Source: a virus. Taken from it: a stretch of DNA of 64,000 nucleotides. The stretch's first letter is position 1. Every line of letters begins with the position of its first letter. Below the pieces are notes generated by a model. That model was given only the letters and a program-made list of their open reading frames with translations. It had not been told where the DNA came from and did not search any database. The stretch spans positions 1-64,000 of the IMG/VR virus record IMGVR_UViG_3300006735_000022; one strand, written 5' to 3'. Below are positions 56,147 through 63,548 of the stretch, in pieces. The position numbers were made by a program, and so were the translations under genes.

Positions 56147-56877
56147 CAGAGCAACCCGATTTCACATCACCCAAATTCTTTGACCACATCGGTGTGTTTG
56201 AGAACTTTGTCAAGTGGGAGTTCTGTGATTCCCTTGTAGACGTATTTGAATATTGGTATAAGAAAAAGCATTTTGTTGGGGAAGACTCAAGTCATACAGT
56301 AACCACTATTGGAGAGGCAGACTTCACCATTGATCACTTCAATGATGGTGAGTCACAATTTCCTAAAGGTGGCATGGGTCGTAAGGATCATCAACTCTAT
56401 CTTGAGGTGTGTGACACAGCGATGACTGCTCAGGTCAACCAAGCAATTGGTCAGGCGTTTGAGATGTATGTGCAGAAGTATAAAGGTTTGGTTGACTCAT
56501 GTGATCCCATCTCTTCATGGACATGTAAACTCCAACGCACAGATCCTGGCGGTGGATACCATGTATGGCATTGTGAGAATGGTAACTTCCTGTACCGTGA
56601 CCGTGTGCTGACGTGGATGATCTATTTGAATGACATCCCTGCTGAGAATGGTGGCGGCACTGACTTCTATCATCAGGAAAAGACTTTCCATCCCAAGAAG
56701 GGAACCATTGTTCTCTGGCCTGCTACTTACACCCACATGCACAGAGGTGCATTCCTTACGGGTGATAAATCTAAGTACATTGCTACTGGATGGTTCCTGA
56801 GAGAACCAGGTAACGTGACTAACCGTACCGTCAGTGAAGCAATCGGCAAGACACAACCTATTGATAAACTAAATTGA
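56143..56877 (+). CDS. 2OG-Fe(II) oxygenase (3), prolyl-hydroxylase-like
   Basis: The 244-residue protein resembles P4H-type oxygenases: GGGYHVWHCEN (His and acidic ligand), LTWMIYLNDIPAENGGGTDFYHQ and GTIVLWPATYTHMHRG (distal His). It is the third such oxygenase in the island. The product could be a hydroxylated amino acid used as glycan attachment point, or a hydroxylated sugar. Its TGA overlaps the TTG start of the next, large gene. Confidence 0.88.
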   Translation: MTEQPDFTSPKFFDHIGVFENFVKWEFCDSLVDVFEYWYKKKHFVGEDSSHTVTTIGEADFTIDHFNDGESQFPKGGMGRKDHQLYLEVCDTAMTAQVNQAIGQAFEMYVQKYKGLVDSCDPISSWTCKLQRTDPGGGYHVWHCENGNFLYRDRVLTWMIYLNDIPAENGGGTDFYHQEKTFHPKKGTIVLWPATYTHMHRGAFLTGDKSKYIATGWFLREPGNVTNRTVSEAIGKTQPIDKLN

Positions 56878-59366
56878 TTTTCTATACGTGCATCACCAAC
56901 GGATACGACTCAGTTCCTGACGCATATGTTGAGGATGGTTGTAGGTATGTTCTGTTCCATGATGGAAGCATCCCTACAACCAAGGGACCGTGGGAGTATG
57001 TGCATTTAGAAGATATTGATATGGAGGAACAACTTCCTGACTGCCCTGTCAGGAAATCATATCTCCTCAAGCACAGACCTAATTTATATTTCACTAGAGC
57101 GATAGACTTTACCGTATGGGTAGACGCCTCATATAATATCACCAAAGAGTTGGTAGATTATAGTAAAAAAGTACAAGAGACTGGTGCTTGTGTTGTACTT
57201 CAAGATCATCCTGAACCAAGGAGTTTGTTAGAGGAGTTCAACAAATTATATGCTGATGGATTTTCCAGTGCAGATGAGATACTCCGCATGTCAGAGGCAA
57301 TGCTGTATGGCAGAAATCCATACCCAAAAAAGAATTATAAGCAGTCCATCAACTGTGTCATCTGGAGGCATAACCTCAATGAGACTAGGAAGTGGAATGA
57401 TGCGTGGGCATCATGGTATGAAAGAGGTGTCAACAGAGATCAGATCTCTAGTGAGGTAGCAAGTCATGAGACTGGTCTAGTCACAGGTCGTGTACCTATG
57501 CAGGTGAGTCTTGATAACACTAATAGAACTAAAACATATGATGAGTCTTATGAGATCAATAAACCATCTAACAAAGAAGTATTAGATTTTCAGGAGAGAC
57601 TGACTGTACTGTGGGATAAAGATATATCCTCAGCAAAACTGAAAGCAGCAACACCTACTCTACCTCATGAGTTTGGTGATCCCATATCTCCTAGTGATTT
57701 GTATGTGTATACATGCATCACCAATGAATATGATTGTCCACAGCACGAATATTTCGATTCGGATGCACGTTACTTCTTATTTCATGATGGTTCTATTGAG
57801 GTCCCTGATGGATGCCTAGACAGTAAGACTAGGGGTCGGTGGAATTATGTTGACGTGTCCCACCTGGGTATTGATAACCCAAGGGAGTTGGCATTCTATG
57901 TCAAAGCAAATCCCCATGAGTTTTTTCCACCTGATTCTTATACAGTATGGATTGATGGTTCATTCAATCACACCAAGGATTTTATTGACAACTCCCTGTC
58001 ATGTTTTCCATTCTCTGCACTACATCATGGAGGTGACTTCACGTTCTATGATGAGTTGCTGGAAGGATTTACATGTGCTTTCTACTCCTATAGTAATGCA
58101 ATCAATTACCTCCAAGCATTGAAGAATAGGGGTTACGATTTCACAAAGTATTCTAGTCCTCAGTGCAGTGCTATCTGGAGACAGATGACACCAGAGATTA
58201 TTGAGTTCAATAAGAGGTGGTACGAGGAAGGAACTCAGATAAACAGGGACACCATTCCATTTGATGCTGCCATACAATCCACTGGATTGACACCTAGATT
58301 TTATGACGACAGAGATGATTGTGGAATTGAATTTGGATTCAACAATAAAAAGAATCGACTGAAGAAGCATGAGCAACTGGGTGATAAAGAACAATACAAA
58401 AAGGTAGACCAGTTCCTCAAGGATTGTGATCAGGTCACAGGACTGAATGCCAAATTAGATGTTAGGTATAAACTTCATGAGTTTTACATGAAGTATTATG
58501 GTATTGGTGGTGACTTAGGATTGTCATTCAATTCATATCCATACCAGCAGGGTGTACGTGTTCCTAAGGAGTACGTGGTTATCTACACTGCTATTACCAA
58601 CGGTCATGATGAGATACCTGAGAAGAATTATTATGATCCTAACATCAGGTATGTTTGTTTCCATGATGGTACCATTGACACCACCAAAGGACCGTGGGAG
58701 TACATCAAATTAGATTTACCTATCGATGACCCACGTGATCTAGCATTTTATCCTAAGTGTAATCCACATGAGTTCTTCCCCTTGGGAACCTATACTGTGT
58801 GGGTGGATGGTTGCTTTGTACATACCAGAGAGTTTGTGGAGAAGAGTTTGTACTCCTTCCCCTTCACTACACTCAGGAACATTAGTAAGTTCTCATACTA
58901 TGATGAGTTGCTGGAAGGATTTACATGTGCATTCTTCCCCTACGATGGTGCTATCAAGTTGACTGAGGCACTGTCTAATACAAACTATAAGTTCAGCAAT
59001 TACTCTAGTCCTCAGTGCTCTATAGTGTGGAGATATCTGTATGATGACACGGTAAAATTCAATAAAGAGTGGTATAATTGGAGTCAACAGGGGATCAATA
59101 GAGATAGCATCCCATTTGATGCTGCCATGCATATGACAGGTCTCAAACCACTGTTCTATGAGAATAGATCTGACTCTGGAATCAAGATGGGGTTCCAACA
59201 TAAGGTCGGAAGGATCAAAAAGCATCCTCAACATGGTGACAAAAAACAATACACCTATGTGGATCAGTTCATCAAAGATCTAGAACGCATTACTAAACTA
59301 AAACCACTCCTGTATATCAAGTACAAGTTTCATGAGTTCTACATGAAACACTACGATATTATATGA
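56874..59366 (+). CDS. Triple-domain DUF616 glycosyltransferase-like protein
   Basis: The 830-residue protein is three tandem DUF616 (TOD1/MUCI70-like, GT-A-type) domains, at about residues 1-230, 276-545 and 566-830. Each repeats the same blocks: YTCITNGYD / YTCITNEYD / YTAITNGHD; FHDGS or FHDGT; FTVWVDAS / YTVWIDGS / YTVWVDGC; QSINCVIWR / YSSPQCSAIWR / YSSPQCSIVWR; and NRDQISSE / NRDTIPFDAA / NRDSIPFDAA. Domains 2 and 3 are clearly closer to each other and share a 33-base exact DNA repeat. The start is TTG in a TTGA overlap. A multi-domain phage enzyme may add several sugars in series. Confidence 0.9.
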   Translation: MIFYTCITNGYDSVPDAYVEDGCRYVLFHDGSIPTTKGPWEYVHLEDIDMEEQLPDCPVRKSYLLKHRPNLYFTRAIDFTVWVDASYNITKELVDYSKKVQETGACVVLQDHPEPRSLLEEFNKLYADGFSSADEILRMSEAMLYGRNPYPKKNYKQSINCVIWRHNLNETRKWNDAWASWYERGVNRDQISSEVASHETGLVTGRVPMQVSLDNTNRTKTYDESYEINKPSNKEVLDFQERLTVLWDKDISSAKLKAATPTLPHEFGDPISPSDLYVYTCITNEYDCPQHEYFDSDARYFLFHDGSIEVPDGCLDSKTRGRWNYVDVSHLGIDNPRELAFYVKANPHEFFPPDSYTVWIDGSFNHTKDFIDNSLSCFPFSALHHGGDFTFYDELLEGFTCAFYSYSNAINYLQALKNRGYDFTKYSSPQCSAIWRQMTPEIIEFNKRWYEEGTQINRDTIPFDAAIQSTGLTPRFYDDRDDCGIEFGFNNKKNRLKKHEQLGDKEQYKKVDQFLKDCDQVTGLNAKLDVRYKLHEFYMKYYGIGGDLGLSFNSYPYQQGVRVPKEYVVIYTAITNGHDEIPEKNYYDPNIRYVCFHDGTIDTTKGPWEYIKLDLPIDDPRDLAFYPKCNPHEFFPLGTYTVWVDGCFVHTREFVEKSLYSFPFTTLRNISKFSYYDELLEGFTCAFFPYDGAIKLTEALSNTNYKFSNYSSPQCSIVWRYLYDDTVKFNKEWYNWSQQGINRDSIPFDAAMHMTGLKPLFYENRSDSGIKMGFQHKVGRIKKHPQHGDKKQYTYVDQFIKDLERITKLKPLLYIKYKFHEFYMKHYDII
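58046..58930 (+). repeat. 33-base direct repeat in the DUF616 triple gene
   Basis: An identical 33-base stretch occurs at 58046-58078 and 58898-58930, 852 bases apart, in equivalent places of domains 2 and 3 (encoding YDELLEGFTC). The flanking DNA is far less alike. This points to recent gene conversion or to a preserved duplication edge between the domains. Confidence 0.9.
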
Positions 59367-60310
59367 TCCTCTACACTGCTATCACTAACGGATACTTTCA
59401 GTTACCACCCAATACTACTGGTAGAAAGTTCATCTGTTTCCATGATGGCAGTGTAAATCAGCAGGAGGGGTGGGAGTTGAGATACATTCCTGGGTTCTCT
59501 TCTTGCCCAGTCAGGATGTCACGTCTTGTCAAAATGCAATGTCCTTTTGACGAACCCAATGTTTATATTGATGCATCCAAACTCCACACCTTGAATGAAA
59601 AATTCTTTGAGGTTAGTGAGTACATCTTATCGATGGATAAGTTTGTTGTCATGGAACATCCTCATAAGCACAGGTACCTTGAGGAATGTGCTGAGTATGT
59701 GTGCCGTGGACTGGTTCCCTTTGAACAGATCTATGACTTCACAGTTGCTGCTAAAGAGGTAGGATTCAACTTCAAAGATTATTCATCACCTCTCTGTACA
59801 GTTATTTGGAGAAGAGGTAAAGAAAAGTTTGATGAACTTTGGTGGCAGTGGTATTCTAAGGGTGGTAAAAGAGATCAACTCTCCTTTGCAGTGTCACTAG
59901 AGCAGTCTAGGATCGCCTACGAGACCATCCCCGCCCGTGACCTGATCAATGTATGGTCGGATGCATCTGAGGGTGGTTCCTGGTGGTTGAACAAGGGTGG
60001 TAGGTATGGTGCTAGGTTCCATTCCAATCCTGAATGGGCAGTTGATATATTATGCGAACTTACAGGACTGGAAAAGAACTCTAGAAACTATCGCTGTGCA
60101 GTTCAGAGAGAGGAAGGTCAACCTCTACGCTGGTTGTTCGGTGATATGTCTGATGACTTCGACTATAAGTATAGGGGGATTGAAATTATGAATCCCTTCC
60201 ACAGTCTTCTCTGGTATACAAACCGAGACACTGGTGTTATGCGAAGACCTCCACGAACAATTAGATCACACTTCGACGATCCTTTCTTTTTCCCACAAAA
60301 TTCATCATGA
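59363..60310 (+). CDS. DUF616 glycosyltransferase-like protein (domain 4)
   Basis: The 315-residue protein has one DUF616 domain: YTAITNGYFQLPP, ICFHDGS, VYIDASKLHT, YSSPLCTVIWRRG and GKRDQLSFAV. It is the most diverged copy and has an extra C-terminal part (residues 215-315) containing WWLNKGGRYG and MNPFHSLLWYTN. ATGA overlaps on both sides. The start (MILYTAITNGY) has no signal or membrane segment, so it probably acts in the host cytoplasm. Confidence 0.88.
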   Translation: MILYTAITNGYFQLPPNTTGRKFICFHDGSVNQQEGWELRYIPGFSSCPVRMSRLVKMQCPFDEPNVYIDASKLHTLNEKFFEVSEYILSMDKFVVMEHPHKHRYLEECAEYVCRGLVPFEQIYDFTVAAKEVGFNFKDYSSPLCTVIWRRGKEKFDELWWQWYSKGGKRDQLSFAVSLEQSRIAYETIPARDLINVWSDASEGGSWWLNKGGRYGARFHSNPEWAVDILCELTGLEKNSRNYRCAVQREEGQPLRWLFGDMSDDFDYKYRGIEIMNPFHSLLWYTNRDTGVMRRPPRTIRSHFDDPFFFPQNSS

Positions 60311-61122
60311 TTATCTACACCTGTGTCACAAACGGATATGACAAGTTTGCTGACGAGCACTACTATGACCCTACTGTTAGGTATATTGCTTTTACAGATG
60401 GTACTGTTGATGTACCGGAGCAATGGGAAGAGTACCCAATCAAGGTAGAGCATGAGTGTCCTCGGAGACTGTCTGCTCACCCCAAAATATGTCCCCACCT
60501 TTACTTTGACATGGGTGAGGCAGTGGTATGGATTGATGGGTGCTATGTAATCACCAAAGAGTTTGTAGACACATCTAAAAGTATCCTGAGTCGTAGCAAC
60601 CAGACTCATATGATTCATCCTTGTCGCTTCAATTTTGTTGAGGAAGTGATGGAAGGTTACGTGTCCTCATTCAACACCAAGGAACAGATGGTGGAGATCA
60701 TGGAGGTATTGAAGGAAGCAAACTATAACTTCAAAGACTATTGCAGTCCTGTACTAGCATCAATTTGGAGACGTATTACTCCTGAGATCAGTAAGTTTGG
60801 TGACATGTGGTGGAAGTATTCTTTGATTGGTCCTAACCGTGACCAGATTTCCTTTGACACCGCACGTCAGTTGACTCACCTGCAATGGAATACAATCAAA
60901 CATCCAGCACAGAACCACTGGCCTGAGGTTGGTATTGATTTCGACCACCGTACAGGTAAGAAGAACCGTCTGGGTAAGCACCCACAGGCAGGAGACCTGG
61001 AGCAGTACAAGCGTGAGGATGAGATGCTGAAGGAGATCCGTAGGTGCACTCGTTTGATTCCAAGGTTGTACTACAAGCACAACTTCCAGTCAATGATTGA
61101 TGCAAACGTATTGAACCGATGA
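60307..61122 (+). CDS. DUF616 glycosyltransferase-like protein (domain 5)
   Basis: The 271-residue protein has the motifs YTCVTNGYDKF, AFTDGTVDVPEQWE, VWIDGCYVITKEFV, YCSPVLASIWRR and GPNRDQISFDTA, ending LIPRLYYKHNF. It is nearest to the next gene, with which it shares WIDGCY, NTKEQ and NRDQISFD. A clean single-domain enzyme. ATGA overlaps on both sides. Confidence 0.9.
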   Translation: MIIYTCVTNGYDKFADEHYYDPTVRYIAFTDGTVDVPEQWEEYPIKVEHECPRRLSAHPKICPHLYFDMGEAVVWIDGCYVITKEFVDTSKSILSRSNQTHMIHPCRFNFVEEVMEGYVSSFNTKEQMVEIMEVLKEANYNFKDYCSPVLASIWRRITPEISKFGDMWWKYSLIGPNRDQISFDTARQLTHLQWNTIKHPAQNHWPEVGIDFDHRTGKKNRLGKHPQAGDLEQYKREDEMLKEIRRCTRLIPRLYYKHNFQSMIDANVLNR

Positions 61123-61979
61123 TTATCTACTCTTGCATCACCAACGGATACGATGAGATCCCGGACGAGAATTACTACGATCCGGATGTCAAGTATGTGA
61201 TGTTTGCTGATGATACTGTTGAAAGGAAAGGACCATGGGAGTTCCGAGAGATCCCATGTGATCATCCCTGTCCTCGTATCCGTTCTTCCTACGTCAAGAT
61301 CAACCCCCATAAGGTATTTGATGAGGGTGAGGAGGTTGTTTGGATTGATGGTTGCTACATCATGAACAAACAATATGTGGAGAACTGTAAGAGATACTTC
61401 GAGGAGAGTTCTTTCACAGTCATCCGTCATGTGAATCGTTACTCATACTATGACGAGATCCTGGAGGGTTTTATGTCCTCCATGAATACTAAGGAACAGC
61501 AACTAGAGATTACCCGAGTCCTGAAGTGGATGAACTATGACTTCAAGAAGTACAGCAGTCCTGTGCTGGGATCTATCTGGCGTCGCCTAGAAAACTATGA
61601 AGAGTTTGGTGATCTGTGGTGGAAGTATGCACAGATTGGACCCAACCGAGATCAGATTTCCTTTGATGCTGCCAAGCAGTTCACCAATAAGCAGATGACT
61701 TTCATCGAGGACGGGTGGCATGAGGTATGGAGAGACCAGAGGGGGAAGTATTTGCATCGACCAGGCAGTTGTGGTATACTTTTTGGGCAACAGGGAAAGA
61801 AGTATCGTCGCAAACGTCATCCACAAGCAGGTCATCAGACTCAGTGGAGAGAGCGACGTGCTATCCTTGAAGAACTTAGAGAGATCACTGGGTTGCACCC
61901 CTTTGTGTTTGCAAAGCATGATCACTCGGAGTTTGTCGAACGTAATGTGATTGCTCCTACTTTGCCTTTACAAAGATGA
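61119..61979 (+). CDS. DUF616 glycosyltransferase-like protein (domain 6)
   Basis: The 286-residue protein is the last gene of the island: YSCITNGYDEIPDENYYDPD, VMFADDT, VWIDGCYIMNKQYV, YSSPVLGSIWRRL and GPNRDQISFDAA, then a C-terminal HPQAGHQTQWRERRAIL as in domains 2, 3 and 5. No terminator is seen between its stop and the late octamer of psbA 13 bases later, so the operon transcript may run into psbA. Confidence 0.9.
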   Translation: MIIYSCITNGYDEIPDENYYDPDVKYVMFADDTVERKGPWEFREIPCDHPCPRIRSSYVKINPHKVFDEGEEVVWIDGCYIMNKQYVENCKRYFEESSFTVIRHVNRYSYYDEILEGFMSSMNTKEQQLEITRVLKWMNYDFKKYSSPVLGSIWRRLENYEEFGDLWWKYAQIGPNRDQISFDAAKQFTNKQMTFIEDGWHEVWRDQRGKYLHRPGSCGILFGQQGKKYRRKRHPQAGHQTQWRERRAILEELREITGLHPFVFAKHDHSEFVERNVIAPTLPLQR

Positions 61980-61992
61980 GAATTTATGTTAC

Positions 61993-62023
61993 GATAAATA
62001 AATCACGGTGTGGATTTCCACAC
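61993..62023 (+). promoter_or_regulatory. psbA late promoter octamer and leader hairpin
   Basis: GATAAATA (61993-62000) is followed by GTGTGGA (62008-62014) and TCCACAC (62017-62023), a perfect stem around a very small turn. The stem is identical to that downstream of the hsp20 late octamer (9936-9960). Confidence 0.78.
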
Positions 62024-62027
62024 TTTC

Positions 62028-62099
62028 TGTCGCCTCACCGAGACTAAACAGCGACACTAAACAACAGTCTCTCATACCTCACCTGGAGGGTAGGTGAGG
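62028..62099 (+). ncRNA. Structured psbA 5' leader, candidate regulatory RNA
   Basis: After the first hairpin the leader contains TGTCGC (62028-62033) pairing with GCGACA (62051-62056), and GAGACT (62040-62045) pairing with AGTCTC (62066-62071). These two helices cross, so they form a pseudoknot or exclude each other. CCTCACC occurs twice (62033-62039 and 62077-62083), and either copy can pair with GGTGAGG (62093-62099). In the hairpin with the second copy, GGAGGG lies in the loop and an in-frame GTG (62094) in the stem. This looks like a switchable leader controlling psbA. Confidence 0.55.
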
Positions 62100-62144
62100 A
62101 ATAATTTACCGGTGTTCCCCGCACTAATACATAACCCTTTTTCA

Positions 62145-63221
62145 ATGTCCGCTACTATCTCACGCTCCCGCCAATCAGGTTGGGAATCTTTCTGTGAGTG
62201 GACCACCAGCACAAATAACCGCCTCTATGTTGGTTGGTTTGGTGTGTTGATGATCCCCACACTCCTTGCAGCAGTTACCTGCTTCATCGTTGCCTTCGTG
62301 GCAGCACCTCCCGTCGATATCGACGGCATCCGTGAACCCGTTGCTGGTTCACTGATCTATGGTAACAACATCATCTCTGGTGCTGTTGTTCCTTCTAGCA
62401 ACGCAATCGGTCTGCACTTCTATCCCATTTGGGAAGCCGCTTCGCTTGACGAGTGGCTCTACAACGGTGGTCCTTACCAGCTCGTTGTCTTCCACTTCCT
62501 CATTGGCATCTTCTGCTATATGGGTCGTGAGTGGGAACTGTCCTACCGCCTCGGCATGCGCCCTTGGATCTGTGTTGCTTACTCCGCTCCCGTCGCTGCC
62601 GCATCGGCAGTCTTCCTTGTTTATCCTTTTGGACAAGGTTCTTTTAGTGACGGTATGCCTCTTGGTATTTCTGGCACATTCAATTTCATGCTGGTCTTCC
62701 AGGCTGAGCATAATATCCTTATGCATCCGTTCCACATGCTCGGTGTTGCTGGGGTATTCGGTGGATCTCTTTTCTCTGCTATGCATGGAAGTCTCGTTAC
62801 TTCCTCGCTTGTACGTGAAACCACTGAGAGTGAGTCCCAGAACTACGGTTACAAGTTTGGTCAAGAAGAGGAGACCTACAACATCGTTGCTGCCCACGGG
62901 TACTTCGGTCGTTTGATCTTCCAGTACGCGAGTTTCAACAACTCACGTTCACTGCACTTCTTCCTGGCTGCCTGGCCCGTTGTCGGCATCTGGTTCACCG
63001 CCCTTGGCGTGTCAACCATGGCCTTCAACCTGAACGGTTTCAACTTCAACCAGTCCATCCTTGATGGTCAGGGCCGTGTGCTCAACACTTGGGCAGACGT
63101 TCTGAACCGCGCCAACCTGGGTATGGAAGTTATGCATGAGCGTAACGCCCACAACTTCCCGCTCGACCTGGCTGCTGCTGAGTCAACTCCTGTTGCACTC
63201 CAAGCTCCCGCCATCGGTTGA
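62145..63221 (+). CDS. psbA: Photosystem II D1 protein
   Basis: The 358-residue protein is a full D1 with no intron: [17 protein letters not shown] start, [40 protein letters not shown]-type His ligand region ([17 protein letters not shown]), the quinone loop around [17 protein letters not shown] and the C-terminal [11 protein letters not shown] cleavage region. Residue equivalent to position 130 is Glu (GREWELSYR), the high-light D1 form. ATG 62145 is the normal D1 start; the frame is open 51 bases further up to GTG 62094, which has GGAGG in front but lies in a hairpin. Phage D1 replaces damaged host D1 during infection. Confidence 0.98.
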
Positions 63222-63240: not shown

Positions 63241-63262
63241 GGGGTCTTCGGACCCCCTTTTT
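63241..63262 (+). terminator. Intrinsic terminator after psbA
   Basis: GGGGTC (63241-63246), loop TTCG and GACCCC (63251-63256), followed by C and a T run. It is 20 bases after the psbA stop and has the same TTCG loop as the terminator at 907. Confidence 0.92.
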
Positions 63263-63263
63263 C

Positions 63264-63548
63264 ATGAACAATCGTCGCAACATCCTTAGGCACTTGAAAG
63301 AACAGTGCATGATCAAGATCACAAGTCTTGACAAACAACTGGTCAAACTTCTTGACCATACTACTCTGCCACCTCACGTGGCAGCAGTGACACCTAACGC
63401 TGTTGATGCTGAAGTAGTTGACAAAGTTCAATCACTTATGGATCAAATCAGTAGGTACGAAGATCGCCTCAATCTAATTGAGACATATGATCTGGACTCA
63501 CTGAAGGAACACGACGATCTTTTGAATTACGACACTTATAGTAAGTAA
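63264..63548 (+). CDS. Small coiled-coil-like protein between psbA and psbD
   Basis: The 94-residue protein starts within a few bases of the terminator's T run. It is helical with heptad-like stretches ([46 protein letters not shown]). No motif is recognised. Its stop is followed one base later by the psbD start. It may be read by leakage through the terminator; TATAAT at 63232 lacks a -35 partner. Confidence 0.65.

Follow-up and report, generated by a model that had tools for sequence, protein, structure and literature searches.

The 2010 description of PhotoRC-II presents an RNA associated with psbA in marine samples and one cyanophage, and in its accessible part rates it 'Y' for being an RNA, 'y' for cis-regulation and 'n' (probably not) for being a riboswitch (PMC2864571). 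In later phage papers it appears as a cis-regulatory RNA that is common in T4-like cyanophages but untested (PMC9602691, PMC10665884, PMC9964418), and a 2020 covariation survey, in its accessible part, places it among the families with covarying pairs that are missing from the database structure (PMC7657543). High light proportionately raises just one gene of phage S-PM2, psbA; the 5′-UTR of this gene has a 36-bp inverted repeat, and structured 5′-UTRs have been suggested to affect psbA mRNA stability in this phage (PMC5931967). A double promoter architecture, combining a sigma-70-like promoter with a late box, has been reported for cyanomyoviral psbA (PMC5931967), and the late promoter of S-PM2 and Syn9 is NATAAATA (PMC2984593). 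On the host side, PhotoRC-I (RF01716) is likewise a psbA 5′-UTR element, which in the Synechococcus WH7803 psbA leader consists of two hairpins followed by a short pyrimidine-rich tract before the AUG.

The window, that is, the whole 64,000-nucleotide stretch of DNA analysed here, belongs to a virus record of 84,935 bases and carries a psbA gene preceded by a structured leader (Table 1). An Rfam scan of the whole window gave RF01717, PhotoRC-II, as its single match at curated cutoffs. The match is full-length, it lies upstream of psbA in cyanophage sequence, and the window has both hairpins of the model, P1 with 6 bp and P2 with 7 bp. In the Infernal alignment the first stem includes two non-standard pairs. 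The leader thus resembles PhotoRC-II in sequence, in P1 and P2, in its site upstream of psbA and in its marine cyanophage setting, and it is a further member of this published family, nearest to the leaders of the T4-like Synechococcus phages S-SM2, S-RSM2 and Bellamy. PhotoRC-I differs from it in sequence and structure, its model line contains no pseudoknot, and our tests gave no sign of homology: RF01716 had no match in the window, nor in positions 61900-62300 up to an E value of 10. The structure line of RF01717 shows two hairpins only. We add PK, a helix that crosses P1, and P3, which lies past the end of the model, although pseudoknots cannot be written in the structure line that Infernal prints, and the lack of PK there does not prove that the Rfam curators left it out. 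The novelty of the pseudoknot is modest, as it may already have been flagged in the 2020 survey, going by the part of that paper available to us (PMC7657543).

Table 1. Features of the psbA leader and its surroundings (window coordinates).
Feature	Position	Strand	Description	Basis
Promoter region	61967-62000	+	sigma-70-like TTTACA-17-TACGAT (61967-61995) overlapping T4-like late box GATAAATA (61993-62000)	sequence and scan
P0, 5′ hairpin	62007-62024	+	GGTGTGG-ATTT-CCACACT (62007-62013/62018-62024); predicted at or near 5′ end of late transcript	hairpin potential in relatives
RF01717 PhotoRC-II match	62016-62112	+	model positions 1-96	61.8 bits, gathering cutoff 39
P1, pseudoknot stem 1	62028-62056	+	TGTCGC 62028-62033 / GCGACA 62051-62056	37 distinct stems in 73 relatives at the corresponding place; first hairpin of Rfam model
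First CCTCACC copy	62033-62039	+	first base ends P1, rest is pseudoknot loop 1	pairing with GGTGAGG not conserved
PK, pseudoknot stem 2	62040-62071	+	GAGACT 62040-62045 / AGTCTC 62066-62071	pairing frequency and tree counts
P2 hairpin	62077-62099	+	CCTCACC 62077-62083 / GGTGAGG 62093-62099; GGAGGG 62085-62090 in loop	in Rfam model; covariation
In-frame GTG	62094-62096	+	candidate alternative D1 start, rejected	position not conserved; TAG 62091-62093 directly 5′
P3 hairpin	62111-62125	+	GGTGT-TCCCC-GCACT (62111-62115/62121-62125); C-rich loop, beyond Rfam model	swapped-arm control
psbA	62145-63221	+	D1 protein, 358 aa	start ATG 62145

Within the promoter region, the sigma-70-like pair is weak, the scan giving one match, which is about the chance expectation. 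The GATAAATA box matches the cyanophage late consensus NATAAATA (PMC2984593), and a late box also lies upstream of the leader in most relatives. Four neighbouring ORFs of 830, 315, 271 and 286 aa, all on one strand and with recurring YTCITNGYD-like starts, occupy positions 56874-61979. They have the look of a family amplified in tandem, which ends just 5′ of the psbA promoter; in a Pfam search the first of them matched the glycosyltransferase-like TOD1_MUCI70 (E 1e-6) and the other three had no match. Beyond psbA, a terminator-like hairpin, GGGGTCTTCGGACCCC, at 63241-63256 precedes a 94-aa ORF (63264-63548) that lies between psbA and psbD and was without a match in a Pfam search.

Leaders for comparison were collected by way of their psbA genes, blind to leader sequence. 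The 210 viral leaders obtained include some from contigs that were fetched twice; 125 of them matched the leader profile. The alignment comprised 73 non-redundant leaders. Leaders of one clade are not independent, and a tree-based count on D1 is the fairer measure. None of 80 cyanobacterial psbA leaders matched the seed profile, and a search of nine cyanobacterial genomes with RF01717, with G000 as positive control, likewise gave no match, so the distribution reported by the describers of PhotoRC-II, which has the element absent from cyanobacterial genomes, holds here too. The Synechococcus WH7803 psbA copy that we examined has PhotoRC-I in place of PhotoRC-II. As far as these searches reach, the element is found before psbA in T4-like cyanophages and is absent from the hosts tested.

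An earlier note on this DNA had listed four helices within 92 bases before psbA, two of them crossing, and had named covariation in other cyanophage psbA leaders as one check. All four helices were recovered where the note had placed them, and PK, P1, P2 and P3 show compensatory changes in the relatives that place the helices beyond chance. Pairing in the five-base-pair core of PK is kept in 99.2% of cells; both bases have changed in 27 cells, and these are distributed over four of the five pairs. Its commonest form, GAGAC/GTCTC, occurs in 52 leaders, and seven alternative helices occur in others: AAGAC/GTCTT (8), AGGAC/GTCCT (4), GAGAT/ATCTC (3), GAGGC/GCCTC (2) and, once each, GGGGC/GCCCC, GGGAC/GTCCC and GGGAT/ATCCC. 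The sole exception, L027 (AGGAA/CGTCC), could pair AGGA with TCCT after a one-base shift. On a tree built from D1 coding DNA, for which the leader was not used, each arm of PK changes about 17 times, and all 8 independent pairs located on well-supported branches show joint change of the two arms (p 0.008). In a global covariation ranking, which is blurred by clade structure, the PK pairs rank 12, 21, 40 and 112 of 7750, one pair hardly varying. The unrestricted search for P1 was noisy (own 6.2, swapped 5.5), and its place is fixed by a restricted search. Single-sequence folding was rejected as proof of structure, with unremarkable z values of -1.50 for the 181-nt leader and -1.56 for the 97-nt core. 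Such values speak for reading the pairings as chance, or as a by-product of promoter constraint on the DNA, to which we nonetheless assign a vanishingly small probability because diverse phages carry compensatory changes in all of PK, P1, P2 and P3; only the second use of CCTCACC, discussed below, is put down to chance.

The crossing of P1 and PK had been presented in the earlier note as a case of mutually exclusive pairings, typical of switches. In fact, P1 and PK occupy disjoint bases and both are kept in essentially every relative. Because they share no bases, the two helices can form together; crossing by itself does not make a switch. Loop lengths among the 73 leaders (loop 1, 3-9 nt, or 22-24 nt in six with an insert; loop 2, 2-6 nt; loop 3, 5-11 nt) suit an H-type pseudoknot. 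In L012, L034, L176, L068 and L194, an insert of about 15-20 nt is located in loop 1 and P1 reads CTTGGA/TCCAAG or CATGGA/TCCATG. We infer that P1 and PK form simultaneously as a permanent pseudoknot, although their covariation would fit alternating helices as well. RNAalifold, which cannot write pseudoknots, chose PK over P1 for its consensus fold. With helix energies evaluated singly, P1 plus P2 reached -17.7 versus -15.3 kcal/mol for the alternative with PK, and the full leader favoured P1 plus P2, although nested folding of the core in isolation slightly favoured the competing pairing. Further copies of the pseudoknot were not found elsewhere in the window. The SAM-II and preQ1-II riboswitches are H-type pseudoknots in bacterial 5′ leaders. 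They resemble the window leader in topology only, since no ligand is known here, no such expression platform was seen, and the Rfam scan of the window returned neither family.

The two copies of CCTCACC, said to compete for one GGTGAGG, are both present; so are GGAGGG in the loop of the last hairpin and, 51 nt before the ATG, a GTG in the D1 frame. The pairing of the first copy with GGTGAGG would be truly exclusive with P2, yet it is not conserved: in the 73 leaders the first CCTCACC copy pairs with the 3′ arm of P2 in 48.4% of cells, as compared to 48.8% in shuffles, and in S-SM2 P2 has become CCTGACC/GGTCAGG, yet the first copy is still CCTCACC. Competing use of CCTCACC was accordingly set aside as chance, and conserved helices sharing a strand, as looked for in a switch leader, were not found. 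A true riboregulator, in which P1 and PK (or pseudoknot and unfolded RNA) alternate in response to light or redox state, or on binding a metabolite or a protein of host or phage, and thereby alter psbA translation or stability, nevertheless draws on the conservation of both crossing helices and of certain unpaired bases. Of the latter, ACC, UCAUA and AGGG are invariant or nearly so and CCC is highly conserved, and they could reflect ligand or protein binding instead of mere protection. Weighed against the separate bases of P1 and PK, the unconserved strand-sharing alternative and the describers' own riboswitch score, as given in the accessible part of their report, such a riboregulator seems unlikely to us. 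What stands of the original proposal is a structured, probably cis-acting psbA leader whose paired bases are kept in related phages; its interpretation as a switch finds no support.

P2 is paired in 92.5% of cells across the 73 leaders, with compensatory changes on both sides in six of its seven pairs, and the AGGG of its loop is invariant in 73 of 73 relatives. A CsrA-type GGA loop was considered for P2 and rejected, as many relatives carry UGAGGG, UAAGGG or UUAGGG, with no GGA. A C-rich stretch also lies downstream of P2 in 73 of 73 leaders. The earlier note had missed one conserved helix, P3. It has just three Watson-Crick and two G-U pairs in the window; in the relatives it comprises 23 distinct stems around a C-rich loop and scores 5.10, as against 3.37 (sd 0.15) for stems given the 3′ side of another relative. 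Kissing between the loops of P2 and P3, AGGG or GGAGGG with CCC or CCUCC, might mask or position a distant ribosome-binding sequence and in this way set initiation at the AUG, some 58-68 nt 3′ of AGGG. Such a contact would be consistent with the invariant AGGG and the ubiquitous C-rich stretch, with loop complementarity of 3-5 bp in all leaders (reaching 5 bp, AAGGG/CCCUU, in P-SSM7), with the joint loss of P2 and P3 from four leaders, and with the finding that none of the 73 leaders has a Shine-Dalgarno-like 4-mer next to the AUG. However, own loops score 3.79 versus 3.78 for swapped ones, with 125 of 300 shuffles as high, and no covariation was seen beyond the invariant GGG/CCC. The missing Shine-Dalgarno sequence is in addition ordinary in the window, where, of 69 plus-strand ORFs that begin with ATG and encode at least 100 aa, only 14 have such a 4-mer; we do not regard it as special. 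Kissing of P2 with P3 is, on balance, quite unlikely.

The conserved start of psbA is the ATG downstream of the leader. A longer D1, initiated at the upstream GTG, had also been envisaged. The GTG is in frame with the ATG and has GGAGGG just 5′ of it, and for Syn9 and S-SSM7 the GenBank annotation uses longer psbA starts. However, in 49 of the 73 relatives an in-frame stop lies within the 51 nt upstream of the ATG, and the window is the only one of the 73 leaders with GTG at -51; an extended D1 is therefore not a conserved product, and that the window itself encodes one is highly improbable. GenBank psbA starts are inconsistent, being too early, within the structured leader, in Syn9 (L083, 388-1524) and S-SSM7 (L085, 352-1536) and too late in S-SM2 (L001, 4327-5235). 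The longer ones look like annotation choices.

The leader is also built of parts that can be lost separately. In the P0 region, mean MFE over 73 relatives was -9.1, as compared to -4.6 in dinucleotide shuffles. The leaders of L143, L189, L191, L195, L196, L198 and S-PM2 have a late box and a P0-like 5′ hairpin without the PhotoRC-II block, which makes P0 and PhotoRC-II separable. Within PhotoRC-II, both P2 and P3 are gone from S-SSM7, L069, P-SSM3 and P-RSM6. Because these four leaders retain PK pairing, the pseudoknot appears to be the core and the remainder a removable module. The reduced leader of P-SSM3 scores 37.2 bits, just below the RF01717 cutoff of 39, and that of P-RSM6 is not among the RF01717 matches listed. 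In the S-PM2 psbA leader, which contains only the promoter and the P0-like hairpin, the 36-bp inverted repeat sits right after the NATAAATA box and is a positional counterpart of P0; the PhotoRC-II block is missing. The light response of S-PM2 psbA (PMC5931967), which might be cited in favour of a riboregulator, thus also argues against one, since a light-responsive psbA that lacks the element indicates that the phage psbA light response does not require PhotoRC-II. For control by light or redox, as suggested in the earlier note, our comparison yielded no evidence. The podoviral psbA leaders examined had no PhotoRC-II, a weak 18-bit match in P-SSP2 lying elsewhere. In the cyanopodoviruses L086, L091 and L095, which have no PhotoRC-II before psbA, a match to the Glutamine-II riboswitch (RF01704) is found downstream of the gene.

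On the comparative evidence, P0, P1, PK, P2 and P3 are conserved as structures. We propose that a late (possibly also early) promoter at about 61967-62000 would start the transcript just before P0, which would be followed by the H-type pseudoknot formed by P1 and PK, by P2 with its AGGG loop and P3 with its CCC loop, and by a short unstructured tract preceding the AUG. The leader would then act as a 5′ scaffold, static and modular, slowing psbA mRNA decay and keeping the initiation region open, not as an on/off switch. Taken as a whole, this reading, which combines a transcript starting at the late box, joint formation of P1 and PK, and a scaffold serving message life and start-site access, has in our estimate a probability of roughly 60%. 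A more speculative idea, which we hold to be improbable, is that PhotoRC-II is a phage-specific pseudoknotted sensor, whose P1/PK domain, with its unpaired bases of high conservation, would bind a host or phage factor and set psbA translation during infection through loop contact between P2 (AGGG) and P3 (CCC).

Crossing helices spotted by eye, as in this leader, need not imply a switch. Phage psbA helps to sustain photosynthesis in marine cyanobacteria during infection. By providing a fuller anatomy of PhotoRC-II (5′ hairpin, pseudoknot, P2 and P3), together with phages that have the pseudoknot only and with the lack of the element in S-PM2 and the podoviruses examined, our analysis offers exact targets for studies of mRNA life, translation and light.
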